Positions 15,301 through 26,290 of a stretch of 37,132 nucleotides of DNA are shown one piece after another. The DNA is from Natronomonas salinimetallica (GTDB taxonomy: Archaea > Halobacteriota > Halobacteria > Halobacteriales > Haloarculaceae): NCBI RefSeq assembly GCF_013839515.1, contig NZ_JACDNQ010000007.1:145013-182144 (forward strand). The letters run 5' to 3'. The notes under the pieces were generated by a model. That model was given only the letters and a program-made list of their open reading frames with translations, did no database searches and had not been told where the DNA came from. The first letter of the stretch is position 1; the number at the start of each line of letters is the position of its first letter. The translations under genes and the position numbers were made by a program.

Positions 15301-16338
15301 ATGGGACTTCGCGTGGTCGCCCTGGCGACGTTGCTCGTCCTCGCCGGCTGTACCACGCCCTTCGGAGCGGGGGGATCCGGCCCGGCGTCGGCCCCGAACG
15401 GAACCGACGGCCCGGACGCCGAGAGGGCGTCCCCGGACACCGCCGCGTCGGCGACGAACCCCTGGGGCAAACCGACGCTGACCGTCGGCGTCGTAAACAC
15501 CGCCGGCCCGTGGCGGGACGTCACCGATCACGTCGCCGATTCGATCGGATACTGGGAGCGTAACGACGCGGCCTACGGCAGATACGAGGTGGACTACGAT
15601 CTCGAACCGAACGCGTCCGACCCCGATATCGTCGTCAAGTACGTCGGGGACGTCAGGGAGTGTGGGCTGCCGGATCGCGACCACGTGGCCGGGTTCGCGC
15701 CGCGCATCACGGCGGAAAATCCGCCGGATCCGCCCGAACGTATCTGTGTTCGCGCGGGGGCCACCAACGGGTCGACCCGCCACGTGATCAAACACGAGTT
15801 CGGGCATCTGTTGGGGATACGCCACGGAGAGCAGCCGGCGGACCTGATGAGTCCCGATTACGGCTACCGGGCGATTCCCCGCCCCGGTCCCGCCCTCCAG
15901 ACCGCCCCTATCGCCCGCGAGAACCTCTCGGTGTATGCCGACCGCTCGACGGTCTTTGCCCGCCGTAACCTGGTGGCCAAACGACAACTCGGCCACGTCT
16001 TCGGGTACTACGAAGCCGGGGCGTCCGGGGCAGTAGAGGGGGTCGATATCACCGCGGCGGACGGGCGGGACACGGCGGACATCGTGATCACCTTCCCCCG
16101 ACAATCCCCCTGTGACAGGCCCAGTGTGGGTTCGTGTGCCACCCTGGAGAACCGCTCGGACGGCCGGCCACGACTCGGCGTCGCGATCACCACGACGCAC
16201 GAGGACACGTTCGGCTGGCACGCCGGCTTCTGGATCGGCTTCGCCCTCGGCATCGACCGACACCGCGACCTCCCGCCCCCGTTCCGGAACGCCTCCTTCG
16301 ACGACAGACGCGGGCCGTGGTGGGCGGATGGGTCCTGA
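15301..16338 (+). CDS. secreted metzincin-like zinc metalloprotease lipoprotein
   Basis: 345 residues. The signal MGLRVVALATLLVLAGC ends in a lipobox with Cys17, so the mature protein should be lipid-anchored outside the cell. HEFGHLLGIRH at 165-175 fits the metzincin zinc motif HExxHxxGxxH, and LMSPDYG with Met183 would be the Met-turn, as in matrixin-like enzymes. The segment SDPDIVVKYVGD before the zinc site is also matrixin-like. I chose the start at 15301 because it places a normal n-region before the hydrophobic core; a longer frame from 15229 would bury the signal. The C-terminal 150 residues, ending in a WWADGS tail, are not recognised. No substrate can be named. Confidence 0.85.
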   Translation: MGLRVVALATLLVLAGCTTPFGAGGSGPASAPNGTDGPDAERASPDTAASATNPWGKPTLTVGVVNTAGPWRDVTDHVADSIGYWERNDAAYGRYEVDYDLEPNASDPDIVVKYVGDVRECGLPDRDHVAGFAPRITAENPPDPPERICVRAGATNGSTRHVIKHEFGHLLGIRHGEQPADLMSPDYGYRAIPRPGPALQTAPIARENLSVYADRSTVFARRNLVAKRQLGHVFGYYEAGASGAVEGVDITAADGRDTADIVITFPRQSPCDRPSVGSCATLENRSDGRPRLGVAITTTHEDTFGWHAGFWIGFALGIDRHRDLPPPFRNASFDDRRGPWWADGS

Positions 16339-16418
16339 TGTGAGTGCCGCCATCACTTATAAAACAGCATCGAACATATTCCCCCGGCTATCCTATTGCG
16401 TGGGAAACACGGCCCCCT

Positions 16419-16460: not shown

Positions 16461-18320
16461 ATGTCACAACAGAAGCCACAGACGTTAGACGAGGACCACG
16501 AGGACCGTATCAAGCGCCATCTGAGCGCGACGCGGTCGATCGCACAGAACATGGAATTCGACGACGACCTGGACTTCGAGATGGGACTGCCCGACCCGGG
16601 TCGCCGGACGATGTTGAAGACGGGAGGGGCCGTCGCGCTCGCGGGCATGCTGGCCGGCTGTTCGTCATCGTCGGACTCCGAAGAGTCGCCGGCTCCCGAC
16701 GAGGGGACCGACGAGGGGGAAACAGAGGAGACCGAGGAGCCGGATGCCGAGCGCAGCGAGACGATACAGATGGAGTCCCATCAGTTCCAGTTCAACCCAC
16801 AGCGGATCGAGGTGCAGCCGAACACGGAGCTGACGATCGAGTTCACGAAGTCGACGTTCGAAGAGCAGCCGGACTTCAACCTCCACAGCTTCGCTCTGAC
16901 CGACGGCGAGTACGACATCGGGCCGATCGAGCTGCCCGAGAGCAACGACGACGACGTCATCGAGTCCGTCACGTTCGTCACCGAGCACACGGGGACGTTC
17001 CAGTTCGAGTGTGCTATCTACTGTGGTGACGGCCACGCACAGATGAACGGACAGATGTTCGTCGTCGAGGAGGGCGAGGAGATCCAAGAGATCGACTACA
17101 CGAAGATGGAGACGCTGAAGGACCGCCACGAGGTCTTCATGCCGGAGGACGAACTCCCCCAAGAGCCCGAACACGACCTCGATCTGCGGGACCTCATGGT
17201 CGTGACCGAGCGGAACAACGCGTCGGTGTCGATGATCGACACGGTCAACGACGAGTTCATGGCGCGCGTCGATAACGTCGGGAAGGCGATCCACGTCCAC
17301 GACTTCCACTCGAGCCTGCCCGAGCAGACCCGCGAAGGCGCATACGTCTACACCCAGTCCCGACAGGGCGAGATGTTCAAGATCGACCTGTTCGGATTCA
17401 ATCGGGTCGCGCTGGCCGACGCCGGATCCGACGCCCGTGATATCGCGGTCTCGGAGGAAAGCGATTGGGTCATCGGCGGCTTCTATAACCCCGCCCACCT
17501 CGTCATCTGCGATGCGGATACGATGGAACCGATCAAGCGGATCCCGACCGAGACGACCGATCCCGACGGGAACGAGGTCAAAAGCCGCATCTGCTCGCTC
17601 TACGACGTGCCCGGTCAGGAACTGTTCCTCGCCGGACTCAAGGAGGGCGGCGAGGTCTGGCTCATCGACTACAGCGAAGGGGACACCGGGGAGGATAGCT
17701 TCCCGGTCGTTGCGAAGATACGGACCGGCCGTATCCTCCACGACGGCTTCTTCACCGATGACGGCCGGTACTTCATGATCGCCTCCCAGGAGGACGACCA
17801 GATAGACGTCATCGACTGCGAGGAGATGGAGCACGCCGCCACCGTTCCGATGGACAACGTGCCCCACCCCGGCCCCGGTGCGCTGTACCCGGAGGGGGAC
17901 CTCGCGTTCACCACGCACGCGGGAGCCGGCAGCGTCGGCGTGTGGAGTACGGATACCTTCGAGCGCGAAAAGCTGATCGACACCCGCGGCTCGGGGCTGT
18001 TCATCCAGAAACACAAAGAAAGCGACTACGTGTGGGCCGACGTCATCCTCACCAACTCCCCGGACGACGCCTACGTCTACCTGATCGATCCCGAGAGCTT
18101 AGAGGTCGACCAGGAGATCGACTGCAGCCAGTGGGGCTCGGCCGCCGCCATCCATCCGGAGTTCAGCCGCGACGGCGAGAAGGTGTACATCAGCTCCTGG
18201 CAGGGTGACTTCCAGGGCATCTTCGTGTTCGATCCGAACACGGGCGAGAAGATCGGCGAGATCGGCGACCTCCTGGCACCGACCGGCAAGTTCCTCGGGA
18301 CCCGAGCAGAGGGACACTGA
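16461..18320 (+). CDS. CuA cupredoxin-heme d1 propeller fusion, putative nitrite reductase
   Basis: 619 residues. A 46-residue acidic n-region precedes a twin-arginine signal (RRTMLK, 48-53) and lipobox (AGC, Cys67), so it should be exported folded and lipid-anchored. Residues about 100-205 form a cupredoxin domain with a full CuA ligand set: His142 in LHSF, then C184-AIY-C188-GDG-H192-AQ-M195, as in cytochrome oxidase subunit II. Residues about 240-619 match the NirS d1-heme propeller: His278 (KAIHVH) at the d1 iron-ligand position, His427 (RILHDG) and His469 (PHPGPGA) at the two catalytic histidines, then GLFIQKH and LLAPTGKF. No CxxCH heme c site exists. Expected role: nitrite reduction to nitric oxide with electrons entering through CuA. 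Function is inferred. Confidence 0.88.
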   Translation: MSQQKPQTLDEDHEDRIKRHLSATRSIAQNMEFDDDLDFEMGLPDPGRRTMLKTGGAVALAGMLAGCSSSSDSEESPAPDEGTDEGETEETEEPDAERSETIQMESHQFQFNPQRIEVQPNTELTIEFTKSTFEEQPDFNLHSFALTDGEYDIGPIELPESNDDDVIESVTFVTEHTGTFQFECAIYCGDGHAQMNGQMFVVEEGEEIQEIDYTKMETLKDRHEVFMPEDELPQEPEHDLDLRDLMVVTERNNASVSMIDTVNDEFMARVDNVGKAIHVHDFHSSLPEQTREGAYVYTQSRQGEMFKIDLFGFNRVALADAGSDARDIAVSEESDWVIGGFYNPAHLVICDADTMEPIKRIPTETTDPDGNEVKSRICSLYDVPGQELFLAGLKEGGEVWLIDYSEGDTGEDSFPVVAKIRTGRILHDGFFTDDGRYFMIASQEDDQIDVIDCEEMEHAATVPMDNVPHPGPGALYPEGDLAFTTHAGAGSVGVWSTDTFEREKLIDTRGSGLFIQKHKESDYVWADVILTNSPDDAYVYLIDPESLEVDQEIDCSQWGSAAAIHPEFSRDGEKVYISSWQGDFQGIFVFDPNTGEKIGEIGDLLAPTGKFLGTRAEGH

Positions 18321-18386: not shown

Positions 18387-19535
18387 ATGACACACACGTC
18401 GACCAACCGCGACGACCGACCCGCGCCAGTAGCCGAGCCGCTCGCCCTCGTCAAGCACCTGCGAAGCGAGGGGTTCACGGTCATCGACGCGAACCGCCAC
18501 GAGCCACTGGCGCAGGTCGGGACGGGCCGCCAGCCCCACGCCCTTGCGGTCCATCCCGGCGGTCGGTGGGGCTACGTTCCCTACATGGCGTCGAACGCGC
18601 TGGAGGTGGTCGACCTGTGGTCTCTCGAGGTGAGTACGCGTATCGAACAAGAGCGGGTCGGAACGGCTCCGGTGGGGGCTGCACTCACGCGGACCGGGGA
18701 GTACCTGTTCGTCAGTTCCTACGGCACGCTTCCGGACCACGATTCGCCGGGACTCGCCGTCTTCGAGACGACCGGCCGTGGCGACGTCGCGCTCACAGAG
18801 CAGTTGCCGGTCGGGAAGGCCGGCGGCGTCGTCGTCGACGTCCGCAACGACGTCTGGCTCGCGTTGAAAGACGAGAACGACGTCGTCAGGCTGGCGGGAA
18901 CCCCTCCCTTCGAGGAGACCGGCCGATTCGCGGTTCCCGGCGACCCACAGGACATGGCCTACGCGGCCGCCTTCGGGTTACTGGGCGTGAACAACGTCGC
19001 CGACGGGAGCGTGACGTTCATCGATACCCTCGCGGGCGAGCGACGGGGGACGGTGTCGGCACCGAACCCGCGTGGTGGTACCGCCGTTCCGGCGGCCGAC
19101 CGCTGGTTCGTCGGGGACACCGAGGGCGACGGCGTGACGGCGATCGACGTGGACGCGGTCCGGGCCGGAAACGGTGACCGACTCGTCGGTGCCGCCGAAC
19201 GCGTCACGTTCGGTACGCCGACCGCCTTTACCGACGCGACGCCGGACGGAGCCCTGCTCGCGATAGACGCGTACGAGGATGACCGGGTCACGTTCCTCGA
19301 TCCGGCCACCCTCGACGTGGTCGCGAGAGTCCAGACCGGCCAGACGCCACACCACCCGCAGTTCAGCGCCGACGGTCAGATCTGTTACGTCCCGAACACC
19401 GACGCGGACACCGTGACCGTCCTCGACACGCAGGCCCTCCAGGAGGGCGACGGTCACGCGTCGGTCGTCACCACGATCGACCTCCCCGAGGGGTCCGCCC
19501 CATCGGGCTGTTTCCGTACCGACAGGAGGGAATGA
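18387..19535 (+). CDS. NirF-like cytoplasmic beta-propeller protein (first copy)
   Basis: 382 residues with no signal peptide, made of repeated propeller blades (LEVVDLW, VTFIDTL, VTAIDVD, VTFLDPAT, VTVLDTQ). The first blade, PHALAVHPGGRWGYV followed by LEVVDLWSLE, resembles the d1-binding blade of NirS and NirF, with candidate ligand histidines at 51 and 56. NirF acts late in heme d1 synthesis. The gene starts 66 bases after the CuA-d1 gene and overlaps the next by ATGA. A general YVTN-type propeller is the alternative, but the position and first-blade wording favour a role in making or inserting heme d1. Unlike many bacterial NirF proteins it has no export signal. Confidence 0.75.
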   Translation: MTHTSTNRDDRPAPVAEPLALVKHLRSEGFTVIDANRHEPLAQVGTGRQPHALAVHPGGRWGYVPYMASNALEVVDLWSLEVSTRIEQERVGTAPVGAALTRTGEYLFVSSYGTLPDHDSPGLAVFETTGRGDVALTEQLPVGKAGGVVVDVRNDVWLALKDENDVVRLAGTPPFEETGRFAVPGDPQDMAYAAAFGLLGVNNVADGSVTFIDTLAGERRGTVSAPNPRGGTAVPAADRWFVGDTEGDGVTAIDVDAVRAGNGDRLVGAAERVTFGTPTAFTDATPDGALLAIDAYEDDRVTFLDPATLDVVARVQTGQTPHHPQFSADGQICYVPNTDADTVTVLDTQALQEGDGHASVVTTIDLPEGSAPSGCFRTDRRE

Positions 19536-19537
19536 CC

Positions 19538-20686
19538 ATGACAACCAACACCACGATCGAACCGGACGAGGACGGAGAACGGACGGCGAAGCGACCGACG
19601 ATAATCAAGAACGCCGCGAGCAGCTACTTCACGGCGCTCGATCCCGAGAGCGGGCAGGTGCTCGGAGAAGTCGGCAGCGGCCAGTACCCACACACCGCAC
19701 TGTTCCATCCGGACCTCCCCGTCGCCTATCTGCTGTATATTTCCAGTGCGCACCTCGAGGTGCTCGATTTGGCGTCCCTCGAGACGATACAGCGGGTCGA
19801 GCAGGTGGGGATGACACCCATCGGCAGCGCGCTCGGCTCGAACGCGGAGTACCTCTTCGTCGGCACGGCCATCGATCTGCCGGGCACCGACGACCCCGGC
19901 GTGTTGACGCTGTCGATAGACGGGGATGACGGGACGGTCGAACACGCCGGCCAACGGACGCTGTCGCGCTGTTCGGGGATGCGTGTCGGCCCCGACGGGG
20001 ACCTCTACGTCGCACAGAAACGAGAACGGGAGGTTCTCGCGTTGAGTGCCGACGACGAACTCGCGGTTCGGGATCGGATCCCGACCGGCGAGGAGCCACA
20101 CGACATGTACGTCCTCGCCGAGGACGGGCTGTTGGTCGTGAACAACAGCGGGGAGTCCCTCGCGACGTTCATCGACCCCGAAGCCGGAACGGTCCGGGCC
20201 GAAGCCGAGACCGGCCGGAACCCCCACGGGTTCGCGGTGGCGGACGGCCCGGACTACCGATACGGGCTCGTTCCCGCCCGCGACGAGGAGCGGTTCGCCG
20301 TCATCGATCTCGACGCCGCCGCGGCGGGTGCGGAGGCACCGACCGAGGCACTCCTCGACGTGGGAACGACTACCGGTTTCGCCGGGACGACGCCGGACGG
20401 ACGCTACGCCGTCATCGACTCCTACGACGAACCGTTCGTGACCATCCTCGGATTGACCGAGCTAACCGTCGAGGGCCGAGTCGAGATCGGCGGCGAACCG
20501 CTCCACGTCGTCTTCTCGGACGACGGCGAGGAGTGTTACGTCGGGAACATGGACCGAAACGAACTCGCGGTGCTCGATACGTCGCCTCTCGCCGACGGTC
20601 GGCCGGAGGACGTCGCCGTCGCCCGGCGGATCGGAGGGCTGGGCGAGAAGCCGAGCGGGATCTTCCAACCGGAGGGACACTCATGA
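19538..20686 (+). CDS. NirF-like cytoplasmic beta-propeller protein (second copy)
   Basis: 382 residues from this start, paralogous to the preceding protein with the same blade order; the first blade reads YPHTALFHPDLPVAYLLY, then LEVLDLASLE, with histidines at 52 and 57. AGGAGG at 19524-19529 sits 8 bases before this ATG but only 2 before the alternative ATG at 19532, which overlaps the previous stop; I prefer 19538. There is no signal peptide. Two adjacent propellers suggest a heteromer or two separate steps in heme d1 handling (NirF- and NirN-like), but this is inference. The gene overlaps the radical SAM gene by ATGA. Confidence 0.73.
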   Translation: MTTNTTIEPDEDGERTAKRPTIIKNAASSYFTALDPESGQVLGEVGSGQYPHTALFHPDLPVAYLLYISSAHLEVLDLASLETIQRVEQVGMTPIGSALGSNAEYLFVGTAIDLPGTDDPGVLTLSIDGDDGTVEHAGQRTLSRCSGMRVGPDGDLYVAQKREREVLALSADDELAVRDRIPTGEEPHDMYVLAEDGLLVVNNSGESLATFIDPEAGTVRAEAETGRNPHGFAVADGPDYRYGLVPARDEERFAVIDLDAAAAGAEAPTEALLDVGTTTGFAGTTPDGRYAVIDSYDEPFVTILGLTELTVEGRVEIGGEPLHVVFSDDGEECYVGNMDRNELAVLDTSPLADGRPEDVAVARRIGGLGEKPSGIFQPEGHS

Positions 20687-21900
20687 TCGATCTCACACGC
20701 CTCATCAGGGGACTGGACAACCGACCCGAACAGATACGCTACGAGGAACGCCACGTCGAGGACGCGCTCGTCCCGCTTGTCGTCTGGAACACGACGCCGG
20801 CGTGCAACCTCAAGTGCAAGCACTGCTATTTCGGCGCCTGTGACGAACGCGACAGCGAGGAGCTGTCGACGGAGGAGGCCAAATCGTTCGTCGACACGCT
20901 GGCCGAGGCGAACGTCCCGGTGTTGGTGTTCAGCGGCGGCGAGCCCTTCTTCCGGGAGGACATAGCGGAGCTCACCCGGTATGCGACCGAGCAGGGGATC
21001 CGCCCGATCGCGTCCAGCAACGGCACCTTCCTCACCGAGGAGCGCGCCCAGGCGGTGGCCGATGCCGGCATGCAGTACGTCGGCGTCTCACTCGACGGTA
21101 TCGGCGAGACGAACGACGAGTTCCGCGGTGTCGACGGGGCCTTCGACCGCGCGCTCGAGGGTCTTCGCAACGCCCGCGACGCCGGCATGGGGACGGGTAT
21201 CCGGTGTACGATGACCGAAACCACCGTCGATGACGTCCCCGAAGTCGTCGACCTCCTGATCAAGGAGGACATAGACCGGGTGAACGTCTTCCATCTCATT
21301 TACTCCGGACGGGGCGGCGATATCACCGACGCGGACCTGTCCCTCGAGAAGGCCCGCGAAATGCTCGATTACCTCTACGAGCGGACGAAAGAGATCGCCG
21401 ACAGCCACCCGGACAAACAGCTGTTGACGGCGGGGAACTACACGGACGCGGTCTATCTCTACCACAAGATCCGAGAGGACCTCCCGGACCACGAAGAGCG
21501 GGCGCGTGAACTCCTGTTCGCGGACGGCCCCGGACGCGTCGTCAAAAACGGCGACGCCGGCCCGAAGGTCGTGAACGTCGACCACCGCGGCGACGTCCAC
21601 CCGAGCATGTTCTTATCACAGTACACGATGGGGAACATTCGGGAGCAGCGCCTGGATACGATCCTCGAGGGGAGCGACCTCTGGAAGAAGCTGGCGGAGC
21701 CGTCCAAACACCTGAAGGGACGATGTGGCGAGTGTCCGTGGAAGGAGGTCTGTGGCGGCAACTCCCGGGCCCGTGCGGCCGCGGTCCACGACGACCTCTG
21801 GGCATCTGACCCCCGGTGTTATCTGACCGACGAAGAACTCGGGTTCGCCGACGGTACCGAGTCGATCCCTGGGCTCGACGAACCGATACTCATCCCGTAG
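20683..21900 (+). CDS. NirJ-like radical SAM heme d1 biosynthesis enzyme
   Basis: 405 residues. The radical SAM cluster motif C41-NLK-C45-KH-C48 is followed by the SAM-binding FSGGEPFF. A C-terminal cysteine set (C348, C351, C357 and C379, in CGECPWKEVCGG and later) marks a SPASM-type auxiliary cluster. This combination is shared by NirJ and its heme-pathway relatives AhbC and AhbD. NirJ removes two propionate side chains from didecarboxysiroheme on the way to heme d1. Haloarchaea also need AhbC/D for ordinary heme, but its position inside an operon led by a d1-propeller gene favours NirJ. It starts by ATGA overlap with the second propeller. GGAGGG at 20671-20676 serves as ribosome site. Confidence 0.8.
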   Translation: MIDLTRLIRGLDNRPEQIRYEERHVEDALVPLVVWNTTPACNLKCKHCYFGACDERDSEELSTEEAKSFVDTLAEANVPVLVFSGGEPFFREDIAELTRYATEQGIRPIASSNGTFLTEERAQAVADAGMQYVGVSLDGIGETNDEFRGVDGAFDRALEGLRNARDAGMGTGIRCTMTETTVDDVPEVVDLLIKEDIDRVNVFHLIYSGRGGDITDADLSLEKAREMLDYLYERTKEIADSHPDKQLLTAGNYTDAVYLYHKIREDLPDHEERARELLFADGPGRVVKNGDAGPKVVNVDHRGDVHPSMFLSQYTMGNIREQRLDTILEGSDLWKKLAEPSKHLKGRCGECPWKEVCGGNSRARAAAVHDDLWASDPRCYLTDEELGFADGTESIPGLDEPILIP

Positions 21901-21904
21901 AACG

Positions 21905-23302
21905 ATGACCAAAGAACAGCCTCTCCAGCGCGGCGAGAAGCCGGCGTACGACGACCGACAGGCACCGACGAAACCGGACGGACCGGACCGGAATGTGGTG
22001 GCCGCCGACGTGTGTGACTCCGTCGACGTCGGGGGGCCTACCGATGCGGGGGAGACGGAGCAGGCTGTGCCACGGAGCCTCAGACGGCTTACCTGTCTGA
22101 GCGTCACCAACCGTACGCACTCGATCGATCGGGTGTGTGAACTCGCCCCGGAGGATCCACTCGCTCTCGCCCGCGCCGTCCAGTCGACGGACCGCGTGAC
22201 CGAGGCGATGGTCCTGTCGACGTGCAACCGGATCGAGGTGTACGTCGCCACCCGGACACCCGATCCGGCGGACCGCGAGGTGGCCCTCGAGGCGGCGACC
22301 GACGGACTCGCGCTCCCGCCGGACGCGCGGGTCTACTCCGGACGGGACGTCGTGACCCACCTCGCCCGGGTGACGGCTGGCATCGAGAGTGCGGTACTCG
22401 GCGAGGACGAAATCGTCGGCCAGGTGAGCGACGCCCTGGCGGCGGCCAAGGAGGCCGGGGTGGTCGCCAGCGTGTTGGATCGGGTCGGCAACGCGGCGTT
22501 ACGTGCCGGCCGGACGTGTCGGGCCGAGACGGATATCGGCGAGGGGCCGGCCGGCTACGGGAGCGCCGTCTGCCGGGTCATCGCCGAGGAGCTCGGGGGG
22601 GCCCCCGGCCAGGTACTGATCGTCGGCGCGGGCGAGATGGCGAGTACGATCGCTCGGACGGTCCGACGTCGCTGGGACGTCCGTATCGACGTGGCAAACC
22701 GCAGTCCGGCCCACGAGCTGACGACCGAGTGTGGAACGTGGTGGACGCTGGACGACCTGGCGGCGGCCGTCGGCGAGGCCGACGCGGTCGTGACGGCGAC
22801 CGGTGCCGACCGTTGGATCTTCGCCGAGGCACACGCCCGCCGGTGTGTGGGTACCGTTCCGGTCGTCGATCTGGCGACCCCTCCCGACGTCTCGGCCGGT
22901 GCGCGCGCTCACCCGAACACCAGCGTCACCGACCTCGAGGAACTCGCGGCGGCGGTGCGCTCGGTGATGGGCCGTCGCCGAGCGGCCGTCGCCGAGGCCG
23001 AATCCGTCATCTCGGACGCGGTTGATCGGCTCGTCGAGTGCGAGCGGGAGAACCGGGCCGAAGGCGTCATTCGCGAGCTACACCGCGAGGCTGCGGACGT
23101 CCGCGAGGCGGAACTGGACCGGGCGAAACAGCGTCTGGCCGACGGCGAGGCCGCCCCCGAGGAGGTACTCGAGGACTTCGCGAGCGCGCTGACGGGCCGC
23201 CTGCTCGGACCCCCCACCGACGAACTCCGGACCGCGGCCCGCGAGCGGGACGAGACCGCGCTCCGGGCCGCTCGGCGGCTGTTCGACGTCGACGGGACGT
23301 GA
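21905..23302 (+). CDS. hemA: glutamyl-tRNA reductase (extra copy in the nir-like operon)
   Basis: 465 residues. It reduces glutamyl-tRNA to glutamate semialdehyde, the first committed step to tetrapyrroles. The catalytic STCNRIEVY with Cys107 is intact, and GIESAVLGEDEIVGQV, VLIVGAGEMAS (NADPH fold) and DLATPPDVS follow. The C-terminus is helical as in the family. An unusual N-terminal extension of about 55 polar residues precedes the catalytic domain. The gene begins 4 bases after the NirJ-like gene and closes the operon, so it probably boosts precursor supply when heme d1 is made. The housekeeping heme pathway copy would be elsewhere. I keep the name hemA by family only. Confidence 0.92.
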   Translation: MTKEQPLQRGEKPAYDDRQAPTKPDGPDRNVVAADVCDSVDVGGPTDAGETEQAVPRSLRRLTCLSVTNRTHSIDRVCELAPEDPLALARAVQSTDRVTEAMVLSTCNRIEVYVATRTPDPADREVALEAATDGLALPPDARVYSGRDVVTHLARVTAGIESAVLGEDEIVGQVSDALAAAKEAGVVASVLDRVGNAALRAGRTCRAETDIGEGPAGYGSAVCRVIAEELGGAPGQVLIVGAGEMASTIARTVRRRWDVRIDVANRSPAHELTTECGTWWTLDDLAAAVGEADAVVTATGADRWIFAEAHARRCVGTVPVVDLATPPDVSAGARAHPNTSVTDLEELAAAVRSVMGRRRAAVAEAESVISDAVDRLVECERENRAEGVIRELHREAADVREAELDRAKQRLADGEAAPEEVLEDFASALTGRLLGPPTDELRTAARERDETALRAARRLFDVDGT

Positions 23303-23402: not shown

Positions 23403-24251
23403 TCAGCGGTCGGGCTTTCGCCCTTCGATAGTCGCGGAGACGATATACTCGCTGACGTCCCGCTCGTCGTCCCACTCCCGGATGAACTCCTCGCTGTCAC
23501 CCTTCGGATCGATGGAGACGTCGACACCCCCGGCGTCCTCCAGCATCGATTCGAGTTCCGGGATGGGCGCGGCCCCCGCGACGCATCCGGCCACGGACGA
23601 CGGGTTCGTGCGAACCGCCGCGGGGAGCGGTGCCGTCTGAACGACGTCGGAGATCGCGAGCCGTCCGCCGGGACGAAGCACGCGAAACGCCTCGTCGAAC
23701 ACCCGCTGTTTGTCCGGCGAGAGGTTGATGACGCAGTTCGAGATGATCACGTCGACAGCCCCATCGGCGACCGGGAGGTGTTCGATTTCGCCGAGTCGGA
23801 ACGACACGTTTTCGGCGTCGTCCGTCGCGGCGTTCTCGCGGGCTTTCTCGACCATCTCGGGCGTCATGTCGACGCCGATGACCCGACCCTCGGGTCCGAC
23901 CTTCCGGGCCGCGAGAAAACAGTCGAAGCCCGCCCCGGAGCCGAGATCGAGGACAACTTCCCCCCGTTCGAGACCTGCGATCGCGGTCGGAGTGCCACAT
24001 CCGAGCCCCAGGTTCGCCCCGGATTCGACCTCGTCGAGTTCCGCATCGGAGTACCCAAGCAGGCGCGATCGGTCGTCGTGGTCGGTTTCCCCACGGGTGT
24101 CACCGCCACAGCAGGCGGACCCGCTCGTCTCCCCACAACAGGACGCTTCGCTCGTGGCGATCTCGCCGTATCGGTCCCGCACGGTGTGTCGTCGTTCGGC
24201 CGCGCCGACCCCGCCGTCGTCGGAGTCAGGCACGTTCGTATCGTCAGTCAT
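23403..24251 (-). CDS. arsM: arsenite S-adenosylmethionine methyltransferase
   Basis: 282 residues. The SAM motif is VVLDLGSGAGFDCFLAARKVG with GVDMTPEMVEKAREN, as in ArsM. Cysteines expected to hold arsenite are visible: CC pairs in SEASCCGE and SACCGG, then NLGLGCGTP, ISNCVINLSP and VAGCVAG. It would methylate As(III) to volatile or less toxic forms in the cytoplasm. It overlaps the upstream arsR-type gene by eight bases, so the two form one transcript. Convergent with the nir-like operon, 100 bases away. Confidence 0.93.
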   Translation of the reverse strand: MTDDTNVPDSDDGGVGAAERRHTVRDRYGEIATSEASCCGETSGSACCGGDTRGETDHDDRSRLLGYSDAELDEVESGANLGLGCGTPTAIAGLERGEVVLDLGSGAGFDCFLAARKVGPEGRVIGVDMTPEMVEKARENAATDDAENVSFRLGEIEHLPVADGAVDVIISNCVINLSPDKQRVFDEAFRVLRPGGRLAISDVVQTAPLPAAVRTNPSSVAGCVAGAAPIPELESMLEDAGGVDVSIDPKGDSEEFIREWDDERDVSEYIVSATIEGRKPDR

Positions 24252-24618
24252 CGTCGTGTGATCGCGTTTCGTCGAGTACGTCCAACAGCCGCTCCGCCCG
24301 CGGCGTCACGCTGTAGTACCGCCAGCGGCCGTCCTTTCGCCGCGCGAGGAGTCCGGCGGCGTACAGCCGCGAAAGCGCCTGGCTGACCGCCCCCTGGCTC
24401 ACGCCGAGTGCGGGCTCTAACTCACAGCCGCAGGCCCCGTCTTCGGCCTCCGCGATGAGACGGAGCGCCTCGTATCGGGTCTCGTTTCCCACCGCCGCAA
24501 GCGTCCGGATGTCCGCCGCTAGCTCCCGGTCAGTCAGCGGGTGTTCGGCTTCACCACAGCACGAGGGCCGTCCGGGAGACGATCGGGGCGCGTCGCCGTC
24601 CGATATCTGTTCAGCCAT
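24244..24618 (-). CDS. ArsR/SmtB family metalloregulator
   Basis: 124 residues with one winged helix-turn-helix domain (ALRLIAEAEDG, then LGVSQGAVSQALSRLYAAGLL and a GRWRYYSV wing). A CxC motif (GACGCEL) at the metal-binding helix and a CC pair near the N-terminus (RPSCCGE) fit an arsenite or similar thiophilic ligand. I chose the ATG at 24618; a GTG at 24630 would start inside the operator. It lies immediately upstream of arsM and should repress it until metal binds. Confidence 0.9.
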   Translation of the reverse strand: MAEQISDGDAPRSSPGRPSCCGEAEHPLTDRELAADIRTLAAVGNETRYEALRLIAEAEDGACGCELEPALGVSQGAVSQALSRLYAAGLLARRKDGRWRYYSVTPRAERLLDVLDETRSHDDD

Positions 24619-24931: not shown

Positions 24932-26290
24932 CTACCCCCGAGCAGCACCCGCGTCCGTCACCCGGCCGAAAAAGAGGACCGCGTCGGTCGGGCGGTCGCG
25001 GATACAGAAGAGAAACGGACGGTCGAGCGTCAGATCGAACGACTCGGGGGGCTGGCTTTCGACCATGTCGACGGCGGTCGCGGCAGCCGCCTCCGTCCCC
25101 TCCTCGTCGACGCTTACGAACGCTTTGTGAAACACGTCGTCGATTCCGGGGCCACCCCCGCTCTCGACCATGTTCGAGAAATCGGCACCGGGTCCGAGCG
25201 CCGCCTCCATGCCCAGTTCCCCGAGGACATCACGGAGTTCGGCGTCGAAGTCGTATTCGAACCTCGGCATTCGGAGGTCGCCATCGGCGGCCCCGAGCGC
25301 CTCGAACGCCCCGAACAGTGTCGGGCCCGATAGCTCCGCTTCTATCGCCTCGAACGCCCCCTCGTCGGGGACGATCAGTACCATCGATACCTCGCCGCCG
25401 ACGTACGGGAGTTCGATCACCTGCGTGTCGGGGAGATCGGCGTACTCGGTCCGCAGGCTCTGTTCCATCATCGGGACGGCCGATTCCGTGCCGTCGAGCG
25501 CGGTGAACGTCGCGTCCGTCGTATCGCCGGGATCGAACGCGTGTCGCCATCCCGCCAGAAAGTAGACGGCGTTCGTCAACACCAGGACCGTCTGTGGCGA
25601 CAGCCCGTTCTCCGGGATCAGTTCCTCGATCCGACCTTCGGTCGCGTTCGAGACCCACTGATTGATACGCTCGCGTTCGGCCTCGTGGTCGTTCGCGAAG
25701 TTCGCCTCGTTGAAACCGCCCTCGTAGTACTGCTCGATCAGGCCGAGGTAGTCCTCCGAAAACCGGTATTCGGCCTCCCCCCACAGCGCGTTCGCGACGT
25801 CCAGCCGAAACGCCTCGATCTCGTCCGCCTCTGAGCCGGGGCCGGCATCGGCCGTCGTCCGGGCGTCGAGTCGGTCTTGTAACTCCGCGAACGCGAGGTG
25901 GGTCTCCTCGCCTGGCGAGAACCCGAGCGTTTCCCGCATCGCCGCCTCGGCGTCCCCGCCGGCACCCGCATACGTCATCGCGAGCGCCACCGAGACGCTG
26001 TACGGGGACACGAACACGTTGTCGGCGTCCCCAGCCGCCGTAAGCCGACCGTGGAGGTCGAGTGCGAATTCCGCGTTGCCCGCGATCAGCCCGCGTAGCC
26101 GCTCGTTCGGTGAGGAAGGCGACCCCTCGGGGAGGGACCCGTCGGACCCATCGGAGGGCGTTTCCGTCGGTTCCTCGGTCGGCGTCCCGGACGGGGGGTC
26201 GGTAGGCTCATCCGTATCGTCGCCGCTACAGCCTGCGAGCGCCGCTGCTGCAGCCATGCCGGTCGCGGCGAGTAGGCCGCGTCGGTTCAT
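24932..26290 (-). CDS. serpin-family protease inhibitor lipoprotein
   Basis: 452 residues. The signal MNRRGLLAATGMAAAAALAGC with twin arginines and lipobox Cys21 is followed by an acidic low-complexity linker (about 22-65), then a full serpin fold. Family segments are NVFVSPYSVSVALAMTYAGA, LTNAVYFLAGW and the C-terminal DRPFLFCIRD, then AVLFFGRV. The reactive loop hinge EEGTEAAAATAV (396-407) has the small residues needed for loop insertion, so it should be inhibitory. The scissile bond lies a few residues later, near VDMVESQP. It is probably tethered outside the cell to protect against secreted proteases; the target is unknown. Confidence 0.95.
   Translation of the reverse strand: MNRRGLLAATGMAAAAALAGCSGDDTDEPTDPPSGTPTEEPTETPSDGSDGSLPEGSPSSPNERLRGLIAGNAEFALDLHGRLTAAGDADNVFVSPYSVSVALAMTYAGAGGDAEAAMRETLGFSPGEETHLAFAELQDRLDARTTADAGPGSEADEIEAFRLDVANALWGEAEYRFSEDYLGLIEQYYEGGFNEANFANDHEAERERINQWVSNATEGRIEELIPENGLSPQTVLVLTNAVYFLAGWRHAFDPGDTTDATFTALDGTESAVPMMEQSLRTEYADLPDTQVIELPYVGGEVSMVLIVPDEGAFEAIEAELSGPTLFGAFEALGAADGDLRMPRFEYDFDAELRDVLGELGMEAALGPGADFSNMVESGGGPGIDDVFHKAFVSVDEEGTEAAAATAVDMVESQPPESFDLTLDRPFLFCIRDRPTDAVLFFGRVTDAGAARG

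Follow-up and report, generated by a model that had tools for sequence, protein, structure and literature searches.

Background

Cytochrome cd1 is a textbook enzyme with decades of work on the transfer of electrons from its heme c to its heme d1. In terminal reductases CuA domains serve for the entry of electrons, as established for cytochrome oxidase (subunit II, COX2) and NosZ.

Haloarchaea were reported to carry NirK only (PMC8400030). Table 6 of another study gives 21 haloarchaeal genomes with both nirK and nirS, and these include genera found here (PMC11052009). A 2024 phylogeny of Nir proteins contains a 'Halophilic archaea NirS-like clade' without the cytochrome c domain, which was used as an outgroup and excluded from the counts (PMC10999283). 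Natrinema, Halobiforma, Halorubrum salipaludis, Halorubrum amylolyticum and a Natronomonas are listed in these two papers, all with nirK. Their main texts go no further than to record that the cytochrome c domain is lacking or that nirS is present, and do not mention a CuA domain. Outside the archaea, open reading frames of the form cupredoxin-C1-C2-NirS, with a copper-type domain N-terminal to NirS, have been described from Chloroflexi (PMC8756737).

Here we describe a haloarchaeal gene whose product joins a CuA-type cupredoxin to a d1 propeller. A preliminary description of this DNA had presented the architecture as one not known to be characterised. Our literature search, which covered the main texts of open-access papers, yielded no account of a CuA-d1 fusion, but the clade itself had very probably been seen before, as nirS in the 21 genomes of Table 6 and as the NirS outgroup.

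Results

The CuA-d1 gene and its product

The window is a stretch of 37,132 nucleotides from Natronomonas salinimetallica. The CuA-d1 gene lies on its forward strand at 16461 to 18320, from an ATG at 16461 to a stop codon that ends at 18320 (the coordinates are those first proposed), and encodes 619 amino acids. The reading frame stays open back to a GTG at 16344. The ATG is preferred because M1 and S2 of the product are conserved among homologues and because a TATA-like TTTATAATC is found approximately 30 bp upstream. The protein consists of an n-region, a twin-arginine at residues 48-49, a lipobox with Cys67, a linker, the CuA cupredoxin at about 97-210 and the d1 propeller at 241-613. Both the twin-arginine and Cys67 are invariant across the family, and the product is therefore predicted to be an exported, membrane-anchored Tat lipoprotein.

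In all CuA-d1 proteins approximately 45 conserved residues (RIKRHLSA...; 16461 to 16600 of the window) precede the twin-arginine motif. This is unusually long for a Tat n-region, and the stretch may be a binding site for a chaperone or a proofreading factor. Just upstream of the gene, at 15301 to 16338, the window encodes a matrixin-like (M10) lipoprotein protease that is not part of the conserved cassette described below.

The CuA domain

Residues from about 97 to 215 (16749 to 17105, forward strand) contain the complete set of five CuA ligands, H142, C184, C188, H192 and M195, with the C-x3-C-x3-H-x2-M spacing of COX2 and NosZ and a His upstream. The five ligands are invariant in an 11-sequence alignment (A1), and so are the adjacent Glu183 and Tyr187; the CuA ligands and d1 histidines alike are kept in haloarchaeal homologues as distant as 46% identity. 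The CxxCH motif is absent from the protein and from every aligned homologue, whereas it is present in all sampled NirS and NirN. The full ligand set and the missing CxxCH had both been noted in the preliminary description, and both observations extend to the family.

A profile of the domain matches Thermus CuA (3.9e-6) and NosZ (5e-5) and ranks CuA proteins above other cupredoxins. All of the non-d1 matches listed for this profile contain CxxxCxxxHxxM and are of the oxidase subunit II type, eNOR subunit II or NosZ. Modelled alone, the domain has a cupredoxin fold (pLDDT 74.6), and its best Foldseek matches are the CuA domains of Thermus ba3 oxidase and NosZ (1.4e-5). Because the VIA Z of approximately 9 is tied among cupredoxins, the copper type is assigned from the ligand motif and the sequence profiles. 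On this basis the domain is a cupredoxin nearest in sequence to CuA domains and would hold a CuA site. Identity with NosZ was rejected: the CuA part alone matches the clade II NosZ model, at 23.5 bits against a cut-off of 625.

The d1 propeller

Residues 241 to 613 (17181 to 18299, forward strand) match Pfam Cytochrom_D1 at 1.8e-69. H278, H427 (in LHDG) and H469 (in PHPGPGA) align with the pocket histidines of NirS and are invariant in the 11-sequence alignment, in agreement with the three histidines first recognised in this part of the protein. The closest sequences in the PDB are NirN (1.4e-39), NirS (approximately 2e-34) and NirF (6e-27). An AlphaFold2 model of the protein, made from ten family members (pLDDT 78.9, pTM 0.82), matches cd1 nitrite reductase with a Z of 47.6 and an rmsd of 3.0 over 428 residues, in line with an eight-bladed propeller of the d1 type. 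The corresponding values are Z 45.0 for NirN, 38.0 for NirF and approximately 32 or less for unrelated propellers. These residues and this fold suggest that the propeller would hold a heme of the d1 type. At the position of H427 the sampled NirN-like sequences have LDDF in eight of nine cases; in the ninth both LDDF and LHDG are missing.

Distribution, selection and phylogeny

A census found matches in 12 of 242 sampled haloarchaeal genomes, each with the full-length fusion. In a phylum-wide sample of 197 genomes no CuA-d1 protein was found beyond the haloarchaea already known to carry it. No relative was found on the viral contigs searched, and none of the plasmids searched carries the full fusion, the best match being a d1-only protein at 42%. 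A scan of named genomes places the fusion in species of Natrinema, Halorubrum and Halobiforma. The distribution is patchy. The preliminary description had called a d1-type enzyme unusual for haloarchaeal denitrifiers, which are known for NirK; every carrier has NirK as well.

The fusion is far beyond chance, because 15 homologous full-length loci keep the reading frame intact and dN/dS, computed between close pairs, ranges over 0.10-0.18 in the CuA domain and over 0.04-0.10 in the d1 domain. Such values indicate that both domains are under purifying selection.

In a midpoint-rooted tree of 50 d1-domain sequences, NirS and NirN form a supported group (98/95) that excludes the haloarchaeal clade. 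The nearest bacterial sequence found is the NirS of Ruegeria, at 36% identity, and in the Ruegeria nirS operon NirT and a cupredoxin gene are adjacent. The CuA-d1 family is very probably the same clade as that in the 2024 phylogeny and in Table 6 cited above. A second d1 copy without CuA is present in 7 of the 12 carriers. These copies nest within the CuA-d1 clade (93/95), which suggests that they arose by loss of the CuA domain. The d1-only paralogue (loci L057-L063) is approximately 419 amino acids long and apparently cytoplasmic, keeps all three d1 histidines and is absent from the window genome.

The downstream cassette

The genes downstream of CuA-d1 lie on the same strand, with 4-base overlaps or gaps of a few to 66 bases. 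F1a (18387 to 19535, 382 amino acids) and F1b (19532 to 20686, 384 amino acids), which overlap by 4 bases, encode cytoplasmic beta-propellers that are NirF-like candidates. The hhalign match to NirF is 98.5%, which is weak since propellers match one another, and a firm NirF assignment was rejected for this reason. Two F1 copies are present in 12/12 carriers and in 0/12 tested non-carriers, congeners included.

The next gene (20683 to 21900, 405 amino acids) encodes a radical SAM/SPASM enzyme of the NirJ/AhbC superfamily. Copies 69-85% identical to it show the same distribution, all 12 carriers and none of the 12 tested non-carriers; radical SAM enzymes of more distant kinds, AhbC-like (approximately 45%) and AhbD-like (approximately 36%), occur in almost every genome. 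It scores 384 bits against the NirJ1 model TIGR04054 (cut-off 650) and falls under every NirJ/Ahb cut-off. The tree places it in a third clade beside NirJ and AhbC (44% identity to AhbC-like proteins and 35-39% to NirJ), and by these comparisons it is neither clearly NirJ nor clearly AhbC.

The gene for HemA, the glutamyl-tRNA reductase of the tetrapyrrole entry step, follows at 21905 to 23302 on the forward strand (TIGR01035, 225.8 bits, cut-off 209.6) and in most carriers adjoins the cassette. No gene resembling NirN or NirE was seen in or near the cassette. Elsewhere the window genome encodes two siroheme decarboxylase proteins, each with two domains and of the AhbA/AhbB (NirDL/NirGH) type, and therefore didecarboxysiroheme, the precursor common to heme and heme d1 (PMC3403918), should be available.

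Other genes surround the cassette. In Natrinema and Halorubrum a divergent gene of approximately 146 amino acids (locus L046, 11447-11887, and equivalents) lies upstream and is absent from the window. Further along the window are an arsenite methyltransferase beside a small Cys-containing regulator-like gene (23403 to 24618) and a serpin-family protein with a lipoprotein-like N-terminus (24932 to 26290; Pfam 1.4e-102).

Denitrification genes in the carriers

NirK is present in all CuA-d1 carriers, split across contig ends in one draft genome, and is enriched in them relative to the class (Fisher p 4e-4). NosZ is present in 8 of the 12, the window genome among them. The replacement of NirK by CuA-d1 was therefore rejected; the CuA-d1 gene would be an addition in denitrifiers that, by their gene content, are already equipped with NirK. 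The constant presence of NirK might mask a loss of CuA-d1 function.

In three Halobiforma-type genomes (loci L056, L076 and L077) and in one Natrinema (L051) the cassette adjoins a Cu-ATPase gene and the genes for a heme-copper subunit I and a CuA subunit II. In L051 subunit I has HGTQQ, with Gln replacing the Tyr of oxidases, as described for eNOR. The pair is taken as subunits I and II of a CuA-type nitric oxide reductase (eNOR). In the window genome NirK, eNOR and a halocyanin-like protein form an island on a contig other than that of the cassette.

Directly 3' of the cassette in Natrinema is a pair of genes for a molybdoenzyme of the type II DMSO-reductase family (L046, 1096-4257 and 2-1096; also L049, L050, L053 and L054). 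It was first read as the nitrate reductase NarGH. The alpha subunit scores 452 bits against DMSO reductase type II (cut-off 985) and 190 against narG (cut-off 1084), and orthodox NarGH was rejected on these scores, all cases being from one genus. NirK matches in many species of one genus (loci L042-L044; genomes G153, G083 and others) have a single in-frame TGA inside the matched stretch, close to where the model ends C-terminally. They probably encode a shorter protein, with matching sequence past the stop.

Discussion

A probable copper-fed nitrite reductase

The best explanation of the CuA-d1 protein, to which we give a probability of roughly two in three, is a nitrite reductase that forms NO and in which CuA stands where cytochrome cd1 has its heme c domain. 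CuA would be reduced by a blue copper protein, for example halocyanin, and would pass one electron to a d1-type heme that has H278 of the propeller as its ligand. The ferrous heme would bind nitrite, H427 and H469 would donate protons, and NO and water would be released. The NO could be passed on to eNOR or to a quinol NOR. As for the heme itself, the dedicated radical SAM enzyme would make it out of didecarboxysiroheme, and the two NirF-like propellers would aid its loading.

This reading is backed by the strictly co-occurring candidate heme-biosynthesis cassette, the siroheme decarboxylase proteins of the window genome, the neighbouring eNOR subunits and Cu-ATPase, the enrichment of NirK and the presence of NosZ in most carriers, together with the d1 family match, the three NirS histidines, the cd1 fold, the invariant CuA ligands, the CuA profile matches and purifying selection on both domains. 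Counted against it are the position outside the NirS clade, the ever-present NirK, the radical SAM enzyme with its own clade and its scores under the NirJ/Ahb cut-offs, the absence of NirN-like or NirE-like genes near the cassette, and the separate contigs of the cassette and the NirK-eNOR island in the window genome. The protein most likely works like cytochrome cd1 and is not a member of NirS, because it has no heme c domain and falls outside the NirS clade. The copper-entry cd1 nitrite reductase proposed in the preliminary description therefore stands as an architecture, on sequence, conservation, fold and profiles; its nitrite reductase function is the best explanation, and its clade lies outside bacterial NirS.

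Alternative roles

The propeller could instead hold another siroheme-derived heme, and the redox reaction fed by CuA might then differ from cd1 nitrite reduction. The third clade of the radical SAM enzyme, a cassette that lacks NirN and NirE, and the separate haloarchaeal clade are in accord with this. We consider it unlikely, given that all three histidines of the d1 pocket are kept and the fold is so similar to cd1. In its most far-reaching form, the protein would belong with neither NirK nor cd1 but to a third class of nitrite reductases that form NO. Here CuA would feed a non-d1 siroheme-derived heme made by a dedicated archaeal pathway (the radical SAM enzyme and the paired propellers), and the enzyme would form, with eNOR, a copper-wired branch of denitrification free of cytochrome c beside NirK. 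We regard this version as unlikely.

Alternatively, a d1 heme protein could have another role beside a respiratory NirK, such as scavenging of NO or nitrite, oxygen reduction or redox sensing. Cytochrome cd1 can reduce oxygen, and both the presence of NirK in all carriers and the patchy distribution of the fusion would fit such a role. The eNOR neighbours in Halobiforma and one Natrinema, and the entry of electrons into terminal reductases through CuA domains, make it rather improbable. A NirN-like maturation protein (a dihydro-heme d1 dehydrogenase serving another enzyme) is very improbable: NirN tops the PDB chains both in sequence and in Foldseek E-value and has no gene in the cassette, but the LHDG histidine missing from NirN is invariant in the CuA-d1 family, and the window genome has a single PF02239 match at E 1e-6 and so no other d1 enzyme to serve.

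Implications

If the copper-fed nitrite reductase is real, this natural replacement of heme c by CuA would allow the role of the entry centre to be separated from the chemistry of d1. It would also suggest that a d1-type heme remains usable by organisms that depend on copper proteins rather than cytochrome c. The fusion and its own apparent cofactor genes suggest a second, differently wired route from nitrite to NO in some haloarchaea. Surveys that give haloarchaea NirK alone (PMC8400030), or nirS counts that leave out the clade (PMC10999283), would then miss a possible source of NO in hypersaline environments.

Comparison with known systems

The CuA-d1 protein has in common with cytochrome cd1 NirS the d1 propeller fold, the proximal and two distal histidines, predicted export, and candidate NirF-like and NirJ-like neighbours. 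It differs in that a CuA cupredoxin replaces the heme c domain, in its separate clade, and in having two NirF-like propellers and no NirN. NirN is a related d1 propeller, but has heme c and LDDF where the CuA-d1 protein has LHDG and no CxxCH. NirF is likewise related, but is without the distal histidine pair. The cupredoxin-C1-C2-NirS proteins of Chloroflexi keep two cytochrome c domains, whereas the CuA-d1 protein has none. In NosZ a CuZ propeller is N-terminal and CuA is C-terminal, the reverse of the domain order found here. With the CuA domains found in NosZ and in subunit II of cytochrome oxidase and of eNOR, the cupredoxin part shares the ligand spacing, the predicted fold and, as proposed, the role in electron entry; in the CuA-d1 protein the CuA domain is instead fused N-terminal to a d1 propeller.
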